From: Chthoniobacteraceae bacterium
GTDB lineage: Bacteria; Verrucomicrobiota; Verrucomicrobiia; Chthoniobacterales; Chthoniobacteraceae
DNA length: 32,002 bases
Assembly: GCA_947471505.1 (NCBI GenBank)
Contig: CANIWM010000070.1
Location: 1-32,002, forward strand
Reading direction: 5' to 3'
Part shown: piece by piece, positions 11,157-19,010 of the stretch
Layout of the letters: each line of letters opens with the position of its first letter
How positions within the stretch are numbered: the stretch's first letter is position 1
Translations under genes and position numbers: made by a program
Notes under the pieces: generated by a model
What the model saw: only the letters and a program-made list of their open reading frames with translations
Told to the model about the DNA's origin: nothing
Database searches by the model: none

Positions 11157-12173
11157 ATGCACGATCTCCGGCAGACTAAATCGTTCCTCTTTCTCATCCT
11201 TGGAGCGGCGTTGCTGGTGCTCTTTTGGCAGACGCAGGGGAACTCGAAGCTCACGATCTACTGCGCGCACGACTCCGTGTTTGCGGAGGAGATACTGCGC
11301 GAATTTGAAAGGCGCGAAGGCGTGCCCATCGAGATCAAGTATGACACGGAGGCAACGAAATCCCTCGGCCTCGTCGAGCGCATCATCCGCGAAAAAGACC
11401 ACCCGCAGTGCGACGTATTTTGGAACAACGAACTACTCGGCACGCTCGACCTCGCCCAGCGCGGCCTGCTGAAAGAGCACAAGGGCAAGGGCTGGGAGCG
11501 CACCCCCGCGCAGTGGCGCGATGAGGAGGGGATGTGGGCTGGCTTCGGCGGTCGGATGCGGATGAAAATCGTGAACACCTCGCGCACCGACCACGCCGAG
11601 CCGACTGCGGAACGCGCCGCGCATTTCGCCATCGCCAAGCCCCTCTACGGGACCACGCTCTCGCAGTTCACCGCGCTGTGGACGATGTGGGGGCCGGAGA
11701 AAACGAAGCGCTGGCACACCGATATCCGCGCCGCCGGAGTCCAAATCGCCAATGGCAACGCCGCCGTCCGCGCCCTCGTAGCCAACGGCGCAGCGGGCGC
11801 GGGCTGGACGGATACGGACGATTTTTTCGACGCGAAAGACGCGGGATTTCCCGTCGCAGCGACGCCCTTAGTGCTCGAAGGCGGCGCGACGATTTGCATC
11901 CCAAACACTGTCGCCATCATGAAAGACGCCAAGCGCGGCGACCTCGCCCGGATGCTCGCCGATTACCTCCTCTCCGCTCGCACCGAGCTGGCGCTTGCGA
12001 AGTCGAAGGCCCGCCAGATTCCCCTCGGCCCGCTGACTCCCCAGCAGACCGCCAGCTTACCGGAAGAAGTCCGCGACCTCATCCCCGCTGCGCACAAAGG
12101 CGTCGCGCAAAAAGGAATGCTCAGAGCGCGGAACGAGTGTCTGGAGTGGCTCAAGGTGGAGTACCTGAAATGA
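11157..12173 (+). CDS. Iron(III)-type ABC transporter substrate-binding protein
   Basis: 338 residues with an N-terminal membrane anchor or uncleaved signal (FLFLILGAALLVLFW). The mature part starts KLTIYCAHDS and contains QCDVFWNNELLGTLDLAQRGLL, the arrangement of FbpA/FutA-like periplasmic ferric-binding proteins in the type II binding-protein class. The C-terminal half has GWTDTDDFFDAK and IPNTVAIMKDAKRGD, also typical. It is the first gene of an operon: its stop overlaps the start of the permease (ATGA at 12170-12173). Iron is the best guess for the ligand. The tyrosine pair that usually binds iron is not obvious, so another metal or a phosphonate-like ligand remains possible. Confidence 0.82.
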   Translation: MHDLRQTKSFLFLILGAALLVLFWQTQGNSKLTIYCAHDSVFAEEILREFERREGVPIEIKYDTEATKSLGLVERIIREKDHPQCDVFWNNELLGTLDLAQRGLLKEHKGKGWERTPAQWRDEEGMWAGFGGRMRMKIVNTSRTDHAEPTAERAAHFAIAKPLYGTTLSQFTALWTMWGPEKTKRWHTDIRAAGVQIANGNAAVRALVANGAAGAGWTDTDDFFDAKDAGFPVAATPLVLEGGATICIPNTVAIMKDAKRGDLARMLADYLLSARTELALAKSKARQIPLGPLTPQQTASLPEEVRDLIPAAHKGVAQKGMLRARNECLEWLKVEYLK

Positions 12174-13510
12174 GCATCGCCGCCGCCACGCTCATCACCG
12201 CGCTGCGAGCGGCATTCATCGCGTGGCTCGCAGTCTATGCCGCCGTGCGGGGCGTGCGCGCTTTTCGCGGTTTGCGCTCGTCGGTTTCTGGGGCGGGCCT
12301 TTGGCTGATGCTCTCGACGCTTCTAGCCCCATCCATGGTGCTCGGCTATCGCTTCGCCACCTCGCGCGCACTTGCGGGGGGCTGGACGGCGGAGCTGCTA
12401 TACAGCGCCCTCGTGCTCATGCGTATCGTCCCGCTGGCGTTTGTCTTGGTGTGGTTTTCTCCCCCGACTGCCACGGCGCAAAGTCGCCACAGCTTTGCCC
12501 TCATGGGCCGCACGAAGACGCACCGGCGTTGGCTCTGGCAGTTGCGCGGATGGTGGGGAGAAATGGCGACGGTTTTCTGCGTCGTGTTCCTCTTCGCATT
12601 CCAAGAGTTCGACCTCGCCGCTTGCATGAATGCTCGCTCCTGGACGGTCGCGCTCTTCGACGCGCAAGCCGGTGGCCTCGCCCTCGGCGAATCGCTGCGC
12701 CTCATGCTCTGGCCCCTTGCTGTTGAGTGCGCCGTGCTCGGCACGCTCGTTTTTCGCGCAAGCAAACGAGGACAAAGAATTGGCCGCGAGCTGCCATCCG
12801 ACGTGCGTGGAGTTGCGCCGTTTGTCCTGCTCTTGGTCATCGCCGAACTGTTCTTTTTGTTTGCCGGCCCGGTCGTCGTATTCGGCAAAGGCTTGGCGGG
12901 GCTCCCCGCGTTGCTGGGGAATTTTGCGCTCACTCGCGAGGTACAAAACTCCTTCGTGCTCGCCCTCGTCGCCTCCATCGCCGCGTGGCTCTTGGCAGGC
13001 TGGGCTTTGGAAAAGCGGGTGCGGATTGCAGCTCTCGCGCTGCCCGGCTTGCTCGGCGGCTTGCTCGTCTCGCTCGTCCTGCTCGCGCTTTTCCAAGTCC
13101 CGCCGCTGCACCTGCTCCGCTCGTCGCCGCTTCCATTGCTCGTCGCATTGGTGCTCATGCTCATGCCCGCCGCGCTCTTCGTCCGCCATCTCCTCGCGTG
13201 CGGGCAGCGCAGCGAATCCGCCCACGCCGCCACGCTCAACGGAGGGGCACAAGCGCGCTGGCTCGTGCTGAAACGCCCGGCGCTCTGGGGCGGCGCACTG
13301 CTCTTCCTCCAAGCCTACGGCGACTTCACCGCCAACTCCCTTCTCGCCCCGCCCGCGCTCACCTCCGCATTCTCCCGCATCTTCAATCTCATGCACTACG
13401 GCCAGACATCAGTCCTCTCCTCCATGCTTTTAGTCACCCTCGCCGCCCCGCTGCTCGCCCTTGTCGCTGCCACATGCATCGCCCGCAATTTTACTCGCCG
13501 TGAACGCTGA
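12170..13510 (+). CDS. Iron(III)-type ABC transporter permease, two fused halves
   Basis: 446 residues, very hydrophobic, with around twelve membrane segments in two halves, as in FbpB-type permeases. The cytoplasmic coupling loops that usually carry the EAA motif are diverged: SFALMGRTKTHRRWLWQLRG in the first half and HAATLNGGAQARWLVLKRPA in the second. The latter is followed by FLQAYGDFTANSLL and FSRIFNLMHYGQ, as in the family. The start overlaps the stop of the binding protein (ATGA). A Shine-Dalgarno-like AAGGTGGA lies about 10 bases upstream at 12153-12160. The 3' end overlaps the ATPase start by 11 bases, so all three genes appear translationally coupled. Confidence 0.85.
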   Translation: MSIAAATLITALRAAFIAWLAVYAAVRGVRAFRGLRSSVSGAGLWLMLSTLLAPSMVLGYRFATSRALAGGWTAELLYSALVLMRIVPLAFVLVWFSPPTATAQSRHSFALMGRTKTHRRWLWQLRGWWGEMATVFCVVFLFAFQEFDLAACMNARSWTVALFDAQAGGLALGESLRLMLWPLAVECAVLGTLVFRASKRGQRIGRELPSDVRGVAPFVLLLVIAELFFLFAGPVVVFGKGLAGLPALLGNFALTREVQNSFVLALVASIAAWLLAGWALEKRVRIAALALPGLLGGLLVSLVLLALFQVPPLHLLRSSPLPLLVALVLMLMPAALFVRHLLACGQRSESAHAATLNGGAQARWLVLKRPALWGGALLFLQAYGDFTANSLLAPPALTSAFSRIFNLMHYGQTSVLSSMLLVTLAAPLLALVAATCIARNFTRRER

Positions 13511-15230
13511 TTCGATTTGGAAACTCACTGACGTTTCGCTCGGCGTGCGGTTGCGGGTTGCGGGGCTGGAGCTTGGTCCGGGCGTGACTGCCGTCATCGG
13601 TTGGTCGGGGGCGGGGAAGACTTCGCTGCTGAACGTGCTGGCGGGTTATGAGAAGCCGACGGCGGGAAAAGCGACGCTGCCGCCGCGTATGGCGTGGGTG
13701 CCGCAGTCGCATGGGCTTTGGCCGCAGTCCACGGTGCGCGAGCATCTCACGCTGGTCGGGGCGACGGCGGGGCGGGCGGAGGAATTGCTCGCGGCTTTTG
13801 ACCTCGCGCCGCTTGCCGATCAGCGGACTGGCGGGCTGAGCGAGGGCGAGGCGGCGCGGCTTTCAGTGGCTCGGGCGATTGCGGCGGATGCTCCTGCGCT
13901 AATGCTGGATGAGCCGCTCACGCACGTCGATCCGGCGCGGGTGGGGAAATACTGGCGCTTGCTCCGAGAGCACGCGGAGGGGCGGGCGATGGTCTTTTCC
14001 ACGCATCAGCCGGAGCAAGTGCTGGTAGAGGCTTCGCGTGTGATCTGTCTCGCCGCCGGGGAAGTCGTGTGGCATGGCGCGGTGATGGAACTTTACGAAC
14101 GCCCGCCGACGCCGGAGCTGATGGCTTTTCTCGGGCCGGGGAATTGGATGGATGGCCGCGCCGTGCGGCCAGAGCGTCTGAGCATCGAGCCCGCGGATGA
14201 TGGCGCAGTCGTGCTCGCTTCACGCTTTGCCGGAGCGATCGCGGAGACGGAACTCTCGCTCGCCGGAAAGCCGCGCACTTTCTACCATCGGCCCGCTCGC
14301 CCTCTGGCAGTGGGGATGCGCGTCGCCGTGCGCGTGCTGAGCGTGCTCATCGCAGTGCTCATCGCGGCGTGTGGAAAACCGAGCGAAGCGCCGACGCTGG
14401 CGGTGAAGCAATGGACAACCTTCATGCTCCCGCCGCTCGGCTCCGTGCAGCCCACGCCGCGCTCGATGACGACCGGCCCGCACGACGAACTCGCCGTCCT
14501 CGACACCAGCGGGCGCGTGCTTATCTACGACGCGGCGGGCGCGCTGCTCCGGCAGTGGAAGATGCTCGACGTGCAGTTTGGTAAACCCGAGGGCATCGTG
14601 TGGCTGAAGGACGACAGCCTCGTCGTTTGCGACACGCATTATCACCGGCTCGTGTGGTTCGATCAAAAGGGCGCGCTCATCCGCACCGTGGGCAAGCGTG
14701 GCGAGGGCAATGGCGAGTTCATTTTCCCCGTCGGCATCGCGAAAGACGCCGCCGAGAATCTCTACGTCTGCGAATACGGCGGGCACGACCGCATCCAGGT
14801 CTTCTCAAAGGATGGCGCGTGGCTGCGGGAGTTTGGCAGCGTGGGCACGGGGCCGGGGCAGTTCCAGCGCCCGAGCGGGCTCGCGTGGCGCGAGGGCCGC
14901 GTGTTCATCGCCGATTCGCAGAACAACTGCATCCATATCTACAAGGACGACGGCAAGTATGTGGGCGTCCTCGGCGACGCGAAAAGCCCGCTCGATTTCA
15001 ACCTCCCCTACGACATCACGCTCGCTCCCGACGGTGCATTTTACGTCATCGAATACGGCGCAGGACGCCTCTCGAAGATCTCCCCGAGTGGCACCATGCA
15101 AGCCCGTTACGGCACCACCGGCACCGGCGAGGGCAACTTCGCGACTCCGTGGGGCCTCTGCGTGGATTCGCGGATGCGCGTGTATGTCGCCGATACGAAG
15201 AACCGGCGTATCGTGGCGCTCCAGCTTTGA
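13500..15230 (+). CDS. ABC transporter ATPase fused in frame to an NHL-repeat lipoprotein
   Basis: One uninterrupted frame of 576 residues from GTG 13500. Residues 1-275 are an ABC ATPase: Walker A GWSGAGKTS (34-42), Q-loop Q69, signature LSEGE (113-117, a variant of LSGGQ), Walker B ALMLDEP (133-139), switch H169, and a TOBE-like tail to about 277. At M273 (ATG 14316) the same frame becomes a textbook lipoprotein signal, MRVAVRVLSVLIAVLIAAC, with lipobox cysteine C291. This is followed by about five NHL repeats (FGKPEGIVW, FIFPVGIAKD, FQRPSGLAW, FNLPYDITLAPDG, FATPWGLCVD) that should form a beta-propeller. Either it is a real membrane-spanning fusion, or translation also starts inside at 14316 to give a separate 304-residue lipoprotein. 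A TTG at 13461 is also in frame upstream but less likely. Confidence 0.82.
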   Translation: MNADSIWKLTDVSLGVRLRVAGLELGPGVTAVIGWSGAGKTSLLNVLAGYEKPTAGKATLPPRMAWVPQSHGLWPQSTVREHLTLVGATAGRAEELLAAFDLAPLADQRTGGLSEGEAARLSVARAIAADAPALMLDEPLTHVDPARVGKYWRLLREHAEGRAMVFSTHQPEQVLVEASRVICLAAGEVVWHGAVMELYERPPTPELMAFLGPGNWMDGRAVRPERLSIEPADDGAVVLASRFAGAIAETELSLAGKPRTFYHRPARPLAVGMRVAVRVLSVLIAVLIAACGKPSEAPTLAVKQWTTFMLPPLGSVQPTPRSMTTGPHDELAVLDTSGRVLIYDAAGALLRQWKMLDVQFGKPEGIVWLKDDSLVVCDTHYHRLVWFDQKGALIRTVGKRGEGNGEFIFPVGIAKDAAENLYVCEYGGHDRIQVFSKDGAWLREFGSVGTGPGQFQRPSGLAWREGRVFIADSQNNCIHIYKDDGKYVGVLGDAKSPLDFNLPYDITLAPDGAFYVIEYGAGRLSKISPSGTMQARYGTTGTGEGNFATPWGLCVDSRMRVYVADTKNRRIVALQL

Positions 15231-15532: not shown

Positions 15533-15976
15533 ATGGCTTGGGTTGTGGATACTTCGGTGGTGTTGGACTTGGTGATTGGCGATCCGGTGTTTGAAGCTGC
15601 CTCCACAGCGTGTCTCCAAGCGCATCTCGCCGATGGATTGGTCATTAGCCCGGTGACATTTGTGGAGCTTGGGCCTTCCTTTGCGGGGGATGATTTGGCT
15701 GCGGAGGATTTCCTCAAAGCGGCCAACATCGGCACCACTGAGTTCTGGAGTCATTTGGATACAAGGTTCGCTCATCGGCTGTGGCATCAGTTTCAAAAGC
15801 GGAGGCGGGCAATTCAGATCGTGAAACGTCCGGTCGCAGATGTCTTGATCGCTGCATTCGCGGAACGATTTCAGGGAATTATCACGCGTAACGCCGCCGA
15901 TTTCCGCAGCATCCTACCGTCGCTTATTGTGGTTGAGCCTTCTACTGGGAGTCCTGTTCCGCCCACTATTCAGTAG
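15533..15976 (+). CDS. VapC-type PIN-domain toxin (predicted ribonuclease)
   Basis: 147 residues with the PIN-domain acidic residues in place: D6 in WVVDTSVVLDL, E45 in VTFVELG, D103 in RPVADVLIAAFA, and D123 in ITRNAADFRSI. These coordinate magnesium or manganese in VapC ribonucleases. The length is slightly above the usual ~130 because of a Pro/Thr-rich tail. Paired with the upstream small gene and probably translated from the strong Shine-Dalgarno at 15521-15527. The RNA target cannot be predicted. Confidence 0.82.
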   Translation: MAWVVDTSVVLDLVIGDPVFEAASTACLQAHLADGLVISPVTFVELGPSFAGDDLAAEDFLKAANIGTTEFWSHLDTRFAHRLWHQFQKRRRAIQIVKRPVADVLIAAFAERFQGIITRNAADFRSILPSLIVVEPSTGSPVPPTIQ

Positions 15977-16154
15977 CGACGCGGCGCGTTCCGTGTCTTG
16001 AATGCGCCTGTCCAACGTGCCGACGCTACCGAATCTATTCACCAGCCTTTTCCCGCCTGCCCGGCGGCGTGTGACGTTTCTCGCGTTGCTGCCGCTGCTG
16101 CTGTTTTTGCTGCTGGTCGCGGCGACGGTGATTGGCTGCGAACTGCGGGGGGTG

Positions 16155-19010
16155 ATGCGCTTTACTTGGAAGCCTGCGTTTTGGCTGCTGTTGGCGGCTC
16201 CTTGGGTTTGGTGGCTGCATTTTGCGGGCTGGAGCGGGCTTTCTGGCGGGCGGGCGCTGGTGGCGCTGGTGGTGCGGTTGATCGTGCTGGCGCTGTTCGC
16301 GGGCGTTTTGGCGGAGCCTCGTGCGGTGCGGAAGTCGGACCATCTTTCGCTCGTGTATGTGGTGGATGTGTCGGACTCGATGGGGGAAAAAGTGTCGGAT
16401 AAATCGCTGGGTTGGATTCTGGAGTCAGTGGGGAAGAAGCCGCAGAAGGATGAGGCGGGGCTGGTGGTCTTCGGGCGCGAGGCGGCAGTGGAGCTGCCGC
16501 CGAGAGTGTCGTTTCCTTTTGAGACGATCAACTCGCGCGTGGCTCGGGATGGCTCGGATTTGGCAAAGGGTCTGAGCCTCGGTGCGGCGATGCTGCCGGA
16601 GGGGAATGAGGGGCGCATGGTGCTCATCTCGGATGGGAATGAGACGGAGGGAAATGTGGCTCCGATGCTCGACGAGCTGAAGTCGAGGGGCATCGCGGTG
16701 GATGTGGTGCCGGTGGATTTTGAGTTCGCGAAGGAGGTGTGGCTGGAGCGGCTGGACTTGCCGCGCGCGGTGAAGCTCGGGGAGGCGTTCGATGCCACGG
16801 TGCTGCTGAATGCGCTGTCGCCGGGGAAGGGGACTCTGCGCGTGGCGGAGAATGGGCAGGCGGTTTTTGAAAAGGAGGTGGATTACACGGCGGGGAAGAA
16901 TCGCTTTACGCTCCCGCTGCCGCAGCGCGGGCCGGGCTATTACGAATACGCGGCGACTATCGAGGTGGCGAAGGGCGAGGACGGCTGGGCGGAGAATAAT
17001 CTGGCGATGGGCGACTTGTATTTGAAGGGCGAGGGGAAGGTGCTCGTCATCACGGATGCGCGCGGCGATGTGCGGGAGTGGGAGCCGCTCGTGGCTGCGC
17101 TGAAAAAGGCGGAGCGCGTCGTGCAGGTGCGGATGAGCTACGAGACTCCACGCGATCCGCTTTCGCTGCTGCCGTATGATTTGATCATCATCCCGAACGC
17201 CCCGGCGGATAGCTTCGACGCGCTGCAACTCAGCGCCATCCACGACGCGATTTATAACCAAGGAGCTGGATTCATCATGCTCGGCAGCCGCGAGACGTTC
17301 GGGCCGGGCGGCTACAACCGCAGCAAACTCGAGGACGCGCTGCCGGTGAGCATGGACGTGACGCAGAAGAAAGTGATGCCGAAGGGCGCGCTGGCGCTCA
17401 TCCTCCACACTTGCGAAATCCCGGAGGGCAACAAGTGGGCAAAGGACATCGCGAAGGCTGCGGTGAAAGTTCTCGGCGGTGAGGACGAGGTGGGGATGCT
17501 CCACTTCAAATACCAAAAGGGCGACGAGTGGATTTTCCCCATGACGCCCGCGAAGGAATACGACACGAAGCTCGTCCAGCTCATCAACGCCGCGACGCCG
17601 GAGGACATGCCCGCTTTCGACAACATCCTCGCGATGGCGCACAAGGGCATCATGGAAGTGGATGCCGCCACGCGGCACATCGTCCTCATCAGCGATGGCG
17701 ATCCGCAGCCGCCGACGCCTGCACTTTTGAATAAGATCGTCGCCGACAAAGTCACTGTCTCCACCGTGGCTATCAACCCCCACGGCGGGCAGACGGTGGC
17801 GACCATGGAAGGCATCGCCAGCGCGACCGGCGGGCGATTTTACTACCCGCAAGACCCGAACGAACTGCCCGCCATTTTCATCAAGGAAGCCAAGACGCTG
17901 AAGCGCTCGATGCTGCAAAACAAAACGTTCGTCCCCACGATGGAGTTCCCGTCGCCCGTGCTCAAAGGCATAGACGCCCTGCCGCCGCTGTACGGCTACG
18001 TCCTCACCACGCCGAAACCGCGCGCCAGCATGATCCTCAACGCCCCGCCGATGGCCGAAGAAGTGGCGAAAGGCGACGCGCCCGACCCCGTCCTCGCGAT
18101 TTGGCGCTACGGCCTCGGCACCACCGCCGCGTGGACGAGCGACCTCGCCGCAAACTGGGGCCGCGAGTGGGTGGGCTGGGACAAATACAACGCATTCGTG
18201 AAGCAGCTCGTGAAAGAAACCTCCCGCGTGGAGACACGCAGCGACCTCACGCTTTCCGCCTTCGCAGCGGGCTCGCGCGGCGTGGTGACGGTGGAGGATT
18301 TTGCGAAGGCTGACAGCTTTTTGGAAATGATCGCGCGCGTCGCCGGGCCGGATGGCAAGACGCTCGATCTCCCGCTCAAGCAAGTCGCCCCGCGCCGGTA
18401 CCAGGCCGAGTATCCGATCTGGGGCAAAGGCCGCTACCAAGTCGCAGCCTCCGGCGTGAGCCTCGCTGCTGCTGGCGGCGCGGCGCGCAACGAGCAAGCC
18501 GTGAGCGGCTTCTCCGTGCCCTACGGCGCGGAGTATCTTCGCTTCAAAAGCAACCCACTCCTCCTCACACAAATCGCCGAGCGTACCGGCGGGCGCGTCC
18601 TTTCGCGCAGCGATGTGGACGTTTTCCAGCGCGCTCGCACCATGCGCGAGAGCAGCAAGCCGGTCTTCGATTGGTTCCTGATCGCGCTGGCCTGCCTCAT
18701 CCCGATTGATGTCGCCGTGCGCCGCGTGCAGCTCGATTTGGGCGTGGTGAAAAGTTGGTTTGGCATTGGCAGAAAGCGCGAATCTACCGCGACGATGGGC
18801 GCACTCCTAGAGCGGAAGAAGCAGACGCAAACCGCCGTGGTTCCGCAAGAGCGCCCCAAGCCCATCCACCTCCCCACCGCGCCTGCGCCGAAACCCATCG
18901 CACCGCCCCCAACGCCGCAGCCGCCCGCTCCCGAATCTCCCGACGCGCAGCAAAGCACCACAGGCCGCCTGCTCGCTCGCAAACGGAAGCGAGAAGAGGG
19001 CGAGGAATGA
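16155..19010 (+). CDS. Membrane protein with VWA and glutamine-amidotransferase-like domains
   Basis: 951 residues from ATG 16155, chosen because homologues of this planctomycete/verrucomicrobial type open with MRF and two membrane helices (about 5-26 and 34-55). The first VWA domain has an intact MIDAS DVSDS (D71, S73, S75) and LISDGNETEG. An amidotransferase-like fold follows (about 295-400: KVLVITDARGD, YDLIIIPNAPAD, GAGFIMLGSRETFGPGGY). A second VWA-like domain (about 415-590) has lost the DxSxS motif (HTCEI instead) but keeps LISDGDP. A last helix near 836-858 precedes a proline-rich, then basic tail. The frame is open back to ATG 16002, which would add one more membrane helix. Role unknown, probably envelope-associated. 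Confidence 0.82.
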   Translation: MRFTWKPAFWLLLAAPWVWWLHFAGWSGLSGGRALVALVVRLIVLALFAGVLAEPRAVRKSDHLSLVYVVDVSDSMGEKVSDKSLGWILESVGKKPQKDEAGLVVFGREAAVELPPRVSFPFETINSRVARDGSDLAKGLSLGAAMLPEGNEGRMVLISDGNETEGNVAPMLDELKSRGIAVDVVPVDFEFAKEVWLERLDLPRAVKLGEAFDATVLLNALSPGKGTLRVAENGQAVFEKEVDYTAGKNRFTLPLPQRGPGYYEYAATIEVAKGEDGWAENNLAMGDLYLKGEGKVLVITDARGDVREWEPLVAALKKAERVVQVRMSYETPRDPLSLLPYDLIIIPNAPADSFDALQLSAIHDAIYNQGAGFIMLGSRETFGPGGYNRSKLEDALPVSMDVTQKKVMPKGALALILHTCEIPEGNKWAKDIAKAAVKVLGGEDEVGMLHFKYQKGDEWIFPMTPAKEYDTKLVQLINAATPEDMPAFDNILAMAHKGIMEVDAATRHIVLISDGDPQPPTPALLNKIVADKVTVSTVAINPHGGQTVATMEGIASATGGRFYYPQDPNELPAIFIKEAKTLKRSMLQNKTFVPTMEFPSPVLKGIDALPPLYGYVLTTPKPRASMILNAPPMAEEVAKGDAPDPVLAIWRYGLGTTAAWTSDLAANWGREWVGWDKYNAFVKQLVKETSRVETRSDLTLSAFAAGSRGVVTVEDFAKADSFLEMIARVAGPDGKTLDLPLKQVAPRRYQAEYPIWGKGRYQVAASGVSLAAAGGAARNEQAVSGFSVPYGAEYLRFKSNPLLLTQIAERTGGRVLSRSDVDVFQRARTMRESSKPVFDWFLIALACLIPIDVAVRRVQLDLGVVKSWFGIGRKRESTATMGALLERKKQTQTAVVPQERPKPIHLPTAPAPKPIAPPPTPQPPAPESPDAQQSTTGRLLARKRKREEGEE

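Follow-up and report, generated by a model that had tools for sequence, protein, structure and literature searches.

A stretch of 32,002 nucleotides from a Chthoniobacteraceae bacterium (contig CANIWM010000070.1 of assembly GCA_947471505.1; the whole stretch is called the window below) contains a single reading frame in which an ATP-binding cassette (ABC) ATPase runs through an internal lipoprotein-type signal into an NHL propeller. The fused frame recurs in 12 genomes, the window's own included, and a base error is ruled out for this reason; judged from these sequences, the joined protein is real and not an artefact of assembly. The reading favoured here, at slightly better than an even chance, is that the frame encodes a natural polyprotein. 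The propeller would be exported and released as a lipoprotein by way of Lgt and LspA, and the signal would stay behind as a tail of the ATPase. Directly established are the uninterrupted frame and its recurrence, the matches to known domains, a conserved lipobox cysteine and one LspA gene in the genome; export, lipidation and cleavage are what we infer.

A single frame for ATPase, signal and propeller

The frame is open on the + strand from 13461 to 15230, which amounts to 589 codons counted from a TTG at 13461. The ATPase is likely to start at GTG 13500, chosen here over that TTG; this start overlaps the permease stop codon at 13508-13510. The frame is divided as follows.

13500..14336, + strand: ABC ATPase of the FbpC/CysA type with a TOBE-like domain (Pfam ABC_tran; Foldseek matches to FbpC 9j4r and CysA 1z47; motif residues)
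14160..14336, + strand: TOBE_2-like stretch (19.7 bits, cut-off 21; last predicted strand RVAVRV at 14319-14336)
14316..14372, + strand: internal lipoprotein-type signal MRVAVRVLSVLIAVLIAAC (lipobox IAAC with Cys codon 14370-14372; this Cys is found in all 12 fusions; 13 uncharged residues, the Cys among them)
14370..15230, + strand: lipoprotein domain, a six-bladed NHL propeller (Pfam NHL and DUF5128; stop at 15228-15230)

An earlier note, made from the sequence alone, had claimed that no stop codon lies between the TOBE-like end and the lipoprotein signal, and had placed the ATG of the signal at 14316 and its lipobox Cys codon at 14370. Both positions are correct, and the absence of a stop holds for the window and for 11 more genomes. 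The Cys is residue 291 when numbered from GTG 13500. The same note had read one set of residues both as the end of TOBE and as the n-region of the signal, and RVAVRV (residues 274-279) is indeed the last predicted TOBE strand as well as part of the n-region. Its NHL propeller is borne out by Pfam and by structural comparison.

ABC_tran (74.2 bits, cut-off 25), NHL (76.2 bits, cut-off 20) and DUF5128 all score above their Pfam cut-offs, with TOBE_2 slightly under. In other fusions TOBE_2 reaches 21.5 bits (G613) or gives no match at an E value of 0.05 (G442, G017); TOBE strands are predicted in the expected place in the models of the window protein and of G442. In Foldseek searches, the ATPase half aligns with FbpC, MalK and CysA structures over about 340 columns (9j4r FbpBC, 1z47 CysA and 3fvq FbpC among them). 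The propeller half matches the Thin NHL domain 6xg7 with a Z score of 38.2 over 274 residues, and the sensor domain of PknD, 1rwi, with a Z score of 29.8. The window protein resembles FbpC/CysA-type ATPases in its ABC fold with TOBE-like domain, in its motifs and in its operon; however, those proteins end at TOBE, whereas this chain continues into an export signal and a propeller.

The catalytic residues are intact. Invariant in all 12 fusions are G34, S36, G37, G39 and K40 (Walker A), S114, G116 and E117 (SxGE), D137, E138 and P139 (Walker B) and H169 (H-loop). The signature loop reads [LM]SxGE, in contrast to the canonical LSGGQ. Between the window (G000) and its closest relative (G032), the ratio of non-synonymous to synonymous substitution rates (dN/dS) is 0.21 for the ATPase and 0.04 for the propeller, which suggests purifying selection on both domains where this is measurable; the value of 0.70 for the signal comes from 22 codons, which are too few. 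For the pair G442/G589 synonymous sites are saturated and the computed ratio of 0.00 is meaningless. Other matches to the ATPase in the window's own genome reach no more than 71 bits (31% identity), against 1346 for itself, and none exceeds 38% identity. Since they score so much lower, this importer is probably driven by the fused copy. In G613 (L081), about 95 extra residues lie between the ATPase core and TOBE.

Recurrence of the joined gene

The 12 genomes with the fusion belong to five genera and four families of one phylum (f1 with genera g1 and g4, f47, f91 and f92), and the 11 other proteins are 38-95% identical to that of the window. A search of the family (40 genomes, the window's own included) gave matches in 15 genomes at 1e-30. 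ATPase and propeller share one frame in eight of these, five from one genus (G000, G032, G025, G030 and G027) and three from another (G019, G020 and G017). The frame of G032 is identical in layout, with 94-95% protein identity. When the NHL part was compared with 213 genomes of the order, 16 matched; in a sample of 387 from the phylum, 6 matched, including G442, which is fused (42% identity). A second fusion, G589, comes from the order of G442 (two of six genomes matched). Another class (9 of 197 genomes matched) added the fusions G596 and G613, and two more searches (4 of 47 and 4 of 288) yielded the separate pairs G681 and G691. Some genomes were covered by more than one of these searches, the phylum and one class were sampled, and the candidates scored per genome numbered at most 11 (order), 6 (phylum sample), 6 (class), and 24 and 3 (further searches). 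Copies will therefore have been missed.

In total the propeller was found in 29 genomes, and in 22 of them the ATPase lies directly upstream, fused in 12 and separate in 10. Outside this count of 22 stand G018, where no ATPase is visible at a contig edge; G592, G590, G404 and G396, with no ATPase upstream within the stretches examined; and G425 and G591, whose ATPase-like matches are on other contigs. G398, a weak match of the ATPase part alone, is outside all counts. G031 is scored as separate: stops divide its ATPase and propeller pieces, though one listing gave a 718-residue open frame for both. Among plasmid records, none covers 80% of the fused protein; there is one propeller-only match, at 33% identity, in Candidatus Chlorohelix.

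The earlier note had named stops in orthologous loci, and a base error in this assembly, as what could overturn the joined frame. Separate ATPase and propeller genes do exist, in 10 of the 22 loci; the other 12 are fused, and this recurrence leaves no room for a base error. Loss of a stop codon through faulty assembly or sequencing might have been suspected, given that the genomes of the family search are drafts of 30-790 contigs and that orthologues with a stop exist. With 12 fused genomes, some of them pairs with a common frame (G000/G032 and G442/G589), the probability of such an error is negligible and it is refuted for practical purposes.

The junction is built like a lipoprotein signal

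In the alignment of the 12 fusions, only two junction residues are invariant: V275, in the last TOBE strand, and C291, the lipobox cysteine. All 12 have A, G or S at position -1 and a Cys that ends the hydrophobic stretch, the lipobox tetrads being IAAC, LAAC, LCAC, SAGC, LTGC, VTGC, GTAC, LTGC, LSSC, LVSC, TCSC and STSC. The features of a signal are present, namely a positive n-region, a hydrophobic core and a lipobox with its Cys. They lie about 270 residues from the protein start, unlike the N-terminal signal of an ordinary bacterial lipoprotein.

Ahead of the Cys, the sequence has diverged. Over the 16 residues before it, aligned without gaps, 12 are identical between G000 and G032, 8 between G000 and G025, 6 between G030 and G027, 5 between G613 and G596 and 3 between G442 and G589, both members of every pair being fused. 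The uncharged run that ends with the Cys has 13-18 residues in the 12 fusions (13 in the window) and 13-19 in nine separate genes; these are nine of the 17 non-fused propeller genes, with G029, G033, G691, G018, G592, G591, G590 and G396 excluded. Because the runs match those of separate lipoproteins, the junction segment appears to be built like a lipoprotein signal. The weight of this conservation is moderate, as some lineages may hold young fusions.

In the favoured polyprotein reading, the ribosome would first make the ABC ATPase and its TOBE domain. The hydrophobic stretch that follows would then act as an internal (N-in) lipoprotein signal, through which the propeller would be exported. 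Lgt would lipidate Cys291 and LspA would cut before it. The products would be a mature propeller lipoprotein, such as separate genes would give, and an ATPase that carries the signal at its C-terminus as a membrane tail, unless it is later trimmed.

The same order of parts invites another interpretation, in which the chain stays uncut. A short helix would then tie the ATPase to a periplasmic propeller that senses substrate or contacts the binding protein. This arrangement is familiar from PknD, in which a cytoplasmic kinase is followed by a helix and an NHL propeller, and its sensor domain gave one of the structural matches noted above. The two systems share the order of enzyme, hydrophobic segment and extracytoplasmic propeller, and a similar propeller fold. 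However, PknD has a kinase where the fusions have an ATPase, a lipobox and a short hydrophobic run, and only the propeller of PknD was compared. A permanent tie does not account for a lipobox Cys retained in all 12 fusions, a stable membrane span would usually need more than the 13-18 uncharged residues present, and the separate homologues do without any tie. Overall an uncut sensor is unlikely.

The position of TOBE bears on the same question. The AlphaFold model of the window protein has a mean predicted local distance difference test score (pLDDT) of 86.5 and a predicted template modelling score of 0.53. It places the last TOBE strand, RVAVRV, at residues 274-279 and a helix at 282-290, followed by the propeller; residues 283-295 have a pLDDT below 50. 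No linker leads from TOBE to the helix. In MalK-like ATPases the TOBE domain is located at a distance from the membrane, so a permanent tie without a linker would be awkward in all fusions. This is an argument for release of the propeller.

The conflict is sharpest in two genomes. The distance from V275 to the Cys is 16 residues in the window, and the corresponding distance is 13 in G442 and 12 in G589. In the model of G442, KVSLLF (residues 296-301) belongs to the last TOBE strand and is separated from the Cys by eight helix-free residues; residues 303-314 have a pLDDT below 50. The last predicted TOBE strand thus appears to double as the start of the signal in G442 and G589. Given the short distance and the model, a complete TOBE and a membrane span cannot well coexist there. 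The geometry of TOBE and signal, as modelled, is the most interesting point. A more specific proposal, which is doubtful, would build on it: in a recurrent polyprotein matured by the lipoprotein signal peptidase, the segment could serve either as the last TOBE strand or as an export signal, never as both. Export would then remodel or tether the ATPase and link importer assembly one to one with delivery of the periplasmic partner. The choice between strand and signal would be clearest in G442 and G589, where TOBE Val and Cys are so close.

Internal start codons

Two products could also come from one frame if ribosomes started within it as well, for example at ATG 14316, to make the lipoprotein alone, with the long form serving as ATPase. 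A textbook signal does begin at this ATG. The aligned codon is ATG or GTG in seven of the 12 fusions, but it is a non-start codon in the other five (ACA, CTG, AAA, TCG and CAC). In 11 of the fusions, some ATG, GTG or TTG is found no more than 22 codons from the Cys. In G017, none of the 39 codons preceding the Cys is ATG, GTG or TTG, and therefore, other start codons aside, an internal start cannot explain this case. The sole candidate of G613 within 36 codons is a TTG at -11, which falls in the hydrophobic part; GTGs follow further upstream at -37 and -39. A Shine-Dalgarno-like motif (AGGAG, GGAG, GAGG or AGGA within 18 bases) precedes no candidate start in 11 of the 12 fusions, and in G596 only the GTG at -30 has one; that these species need such motifs is an assumption. 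Moreover, the long form would still be made.

As a general answer, an internal start was thus rejected for G017 and is unlikely for G613, with the other ten possible; overall it is decidedly improbable. The earlier note had left the choice between a membrane-tied protein and two products. Two products are favoured here, and proteolytic processing seems the better route to them than internal starts.

Joined and separate forms

The separate propeller lipoproteins of relatives have a homologous propeller, a lipobox and the same place in the operon. Unlike the fusions, they have their own start codon and n-region, usually overlapping the ATPase stop. Such an overlap is seen in seven of the ten separate pairs (G001, G039, G021, G074, G423, G681 and G691). 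ATGA is common to stop and start in G001, G039, G021 and G074; the overlap is ATGCTAG in G423, which has more in-frame starts upstream, and 19 bases in G681, the propeller start codons in all separate genes being our own reading. In G691 (L103, 4000-4400), the genes overlap in ATGA, and a long in-frame insert containing short repeated motifs lies between the propeller start and the signal core. In G029, G031 and G033, ATGA stands at the ATPase end, followed by a palindromic repeat and a new propeller start (275 bases on in G033).

The overlaps invite termination-reinitiation, and coupling of this type is described for many ABC-transporter gene clusters (PMC3711429). If the separate genes use this route, fusion would abolish it.

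The two forms are interleaved. On a tree of 22 rows built from concatenated ATPase and propeller proteins, the fused or separate state changes at least six times, with four changes forced by well-supported branches. A single clade of the 12 fusions is rejected under the model of this tree (approximately unbiased test, p 5e-7), and with it one ancient fusion kept as a single clade. The ATPase-only tree (20 rows) requires six changes and the propeller-only tree (27 rows) eight, the latter scoring genomes without an adjacent ATPase as separate. The number of changes is uncertain, with several open branches and some long rows, and fusion is not distinguishable from fission. When the fused label was shuffled 500 times, 84 shuffles needed equally few changes, and the label is therefore hardly clustered. 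The clade of G029, G031 and G033 could represent a secondary split of a fused gene, with a dispersed palindromic repeat in its junction.

Interleaving fits two nearly equivalent states, because in the favoured polyprotein reading both forms end as two proteins. It would also be expected of a neutral or slightly harmful accident, in which an indel merged the frames of an overlapping pair and the result was tolerated with no notable processing. The shuffled labels suit this view, and the +1 frame of the junction might hint weakly at an ATPase stop that once existed, since stops occur there in 10 of the 12 fusions against 5.6 expected (in the -1 frame, 2 against 4.3). However, a vestigial stop was not accepted, as the sequences are related and ATG-A and GTG-A codon pairs in the TOBE motif inflate the count. 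Against an accident, fusions have been kept over large divergence (66% identity for G442/G589 and 71% for G000/G025), both domains are probably under purifying selection where measurable, and the catalytic motifs are intact. An accident is thus very unlikely.

Several observations weigh against the polyprotein. Positions -3 and -2 of the lipobox are irregular in four of the 12 fusions (SAGC, GTAC, TCSC and STSC), and retention of the Cys could partly stem from recent fusion in some lineages. A fast-evolving segment (dN/dS 0.70) suits a plain linker as well as a signal. Where the TOBE strand overlaps the signal (G442 and G589), export would deprive the ATPase of the final strand of TOBE. Internal starts are conceivable where a start codon is nearby (11 of 12) or occupies the place of ATG 14316 (7 of 12). 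Finally, in G596 neither a binding protein nor a permease lies within the stretch examined.

Two side observations concern these loci. The palindromic repeat, GGGCTGAAAGCCC, stands in the junction inserts of L064-L066. It is present in 2-13 copies per genome in all seven family genomes searched, against 0-1 for a reversed control, in several places as inverted pairs 37-49 bases apart (start to start). The separate propeller of G074 (L051/L063) has a lipoprotein signal of the twin-arginine type (RRRFLETLG...LAGC), and the other separate genes read differ from it.

Related systems

To our knowledge, few bacterial polyproteins have an export signal that is internal and cleavable. The cytochrome b/c1 precursor of Bradyrhizobium (fbcH) is reportedly one polypeptide that is cut by signal peptidase. 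Like the window gene, it combines one gene and an internal export signal with two expected mature proteins; the difference is that signal peptidase I and cytochromes are involved there, whereas the lipoprotein signal peptidase and an ABC ATPase are proposed here. An extracytoplasmic part is likewise reported to be fused to an importer subunit in GlnPQ and OpuA, but there binding domains are joined to the permease, and here a propeller is joined to the ATPase. Among the matches listed in the open-access literature, no publication describes the architecture of ATPase, lipoprotein signal and propeller, and none a polyprotein cut at an internal signal by the lipoprotein signal peptidase, an absence that means little.

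If the polyprotein reading is true, Lgt and LspA would accept a signal that follows a cytoplasmic enzyme of about 270 residues. It would also account for free fusion and fission in overlapping gene pairs whose second product begins with a signal peptide, and annotation pipelines would have grounds to leave such frames unsplit and untrimmed. Because joined and separate orthologues both occur in nature, this reading can be tested directly.

The importer and its neighbouring genes

The operon order is binding protein, permease, ATPase and propeller lipoprotein. The other genes considered are the following.

11157..12173, + strand: substrate-binding protein of the FbpA-like superfamily, first gene of the operon (Pfam SBP_bac_8/11/1; PDB relatives mostly ferric-binding)
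12170..13510, + strand: permease of 446 residues with many hydrophobic segments (hydrophobicity; homologous permease in the same place in relatives)
16002..19010, + strand: VWA and GATase1_like protein (Pfam)

The permease start overlaps the stop of the binding protein gene in an ATGA at 12170. The permease has no Pfam match and no PDB sequence match, and its label therefore rests on hydrophobicity and its place in the operon. Binding protein and permease adjoin the ATPase in 19 of the 22 loci; G019 and G021 have the permease only, at a contig end.

The earlier note had called the importer iron-type. The binding protein is indeed FbpA-like; its N-terminus in the window is hydrophobic and has no lipobox. 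The tyrosine pair of ferric-binding proteins binds iron, but in the alignment with the Thermus protein this pair is replaced by two Asp, and iron is for this reason a doubtful substrate. At this place D(T/S)DD is found in 17 of 17 orthologues, and TDTDD in 14 of 17. One may guess that the propeller docks from outside onto either the binding protein or the permease.

Within the stretches examined, 15 of 29 loci have a homologue of the VWA/GATase1-like gene downstream of the propeller. In the window, a PIN-domain gene (Pfam PIN, 15533-15976) separates it from the propeller, and the gap in G032 is similar in size. In G032 (L070), about 760 extra bases that encode a nucleotidyltransferase/HEPN pair separate the permease from the ATPase. 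The operon may collect toxin-antitoxin-like pairs.

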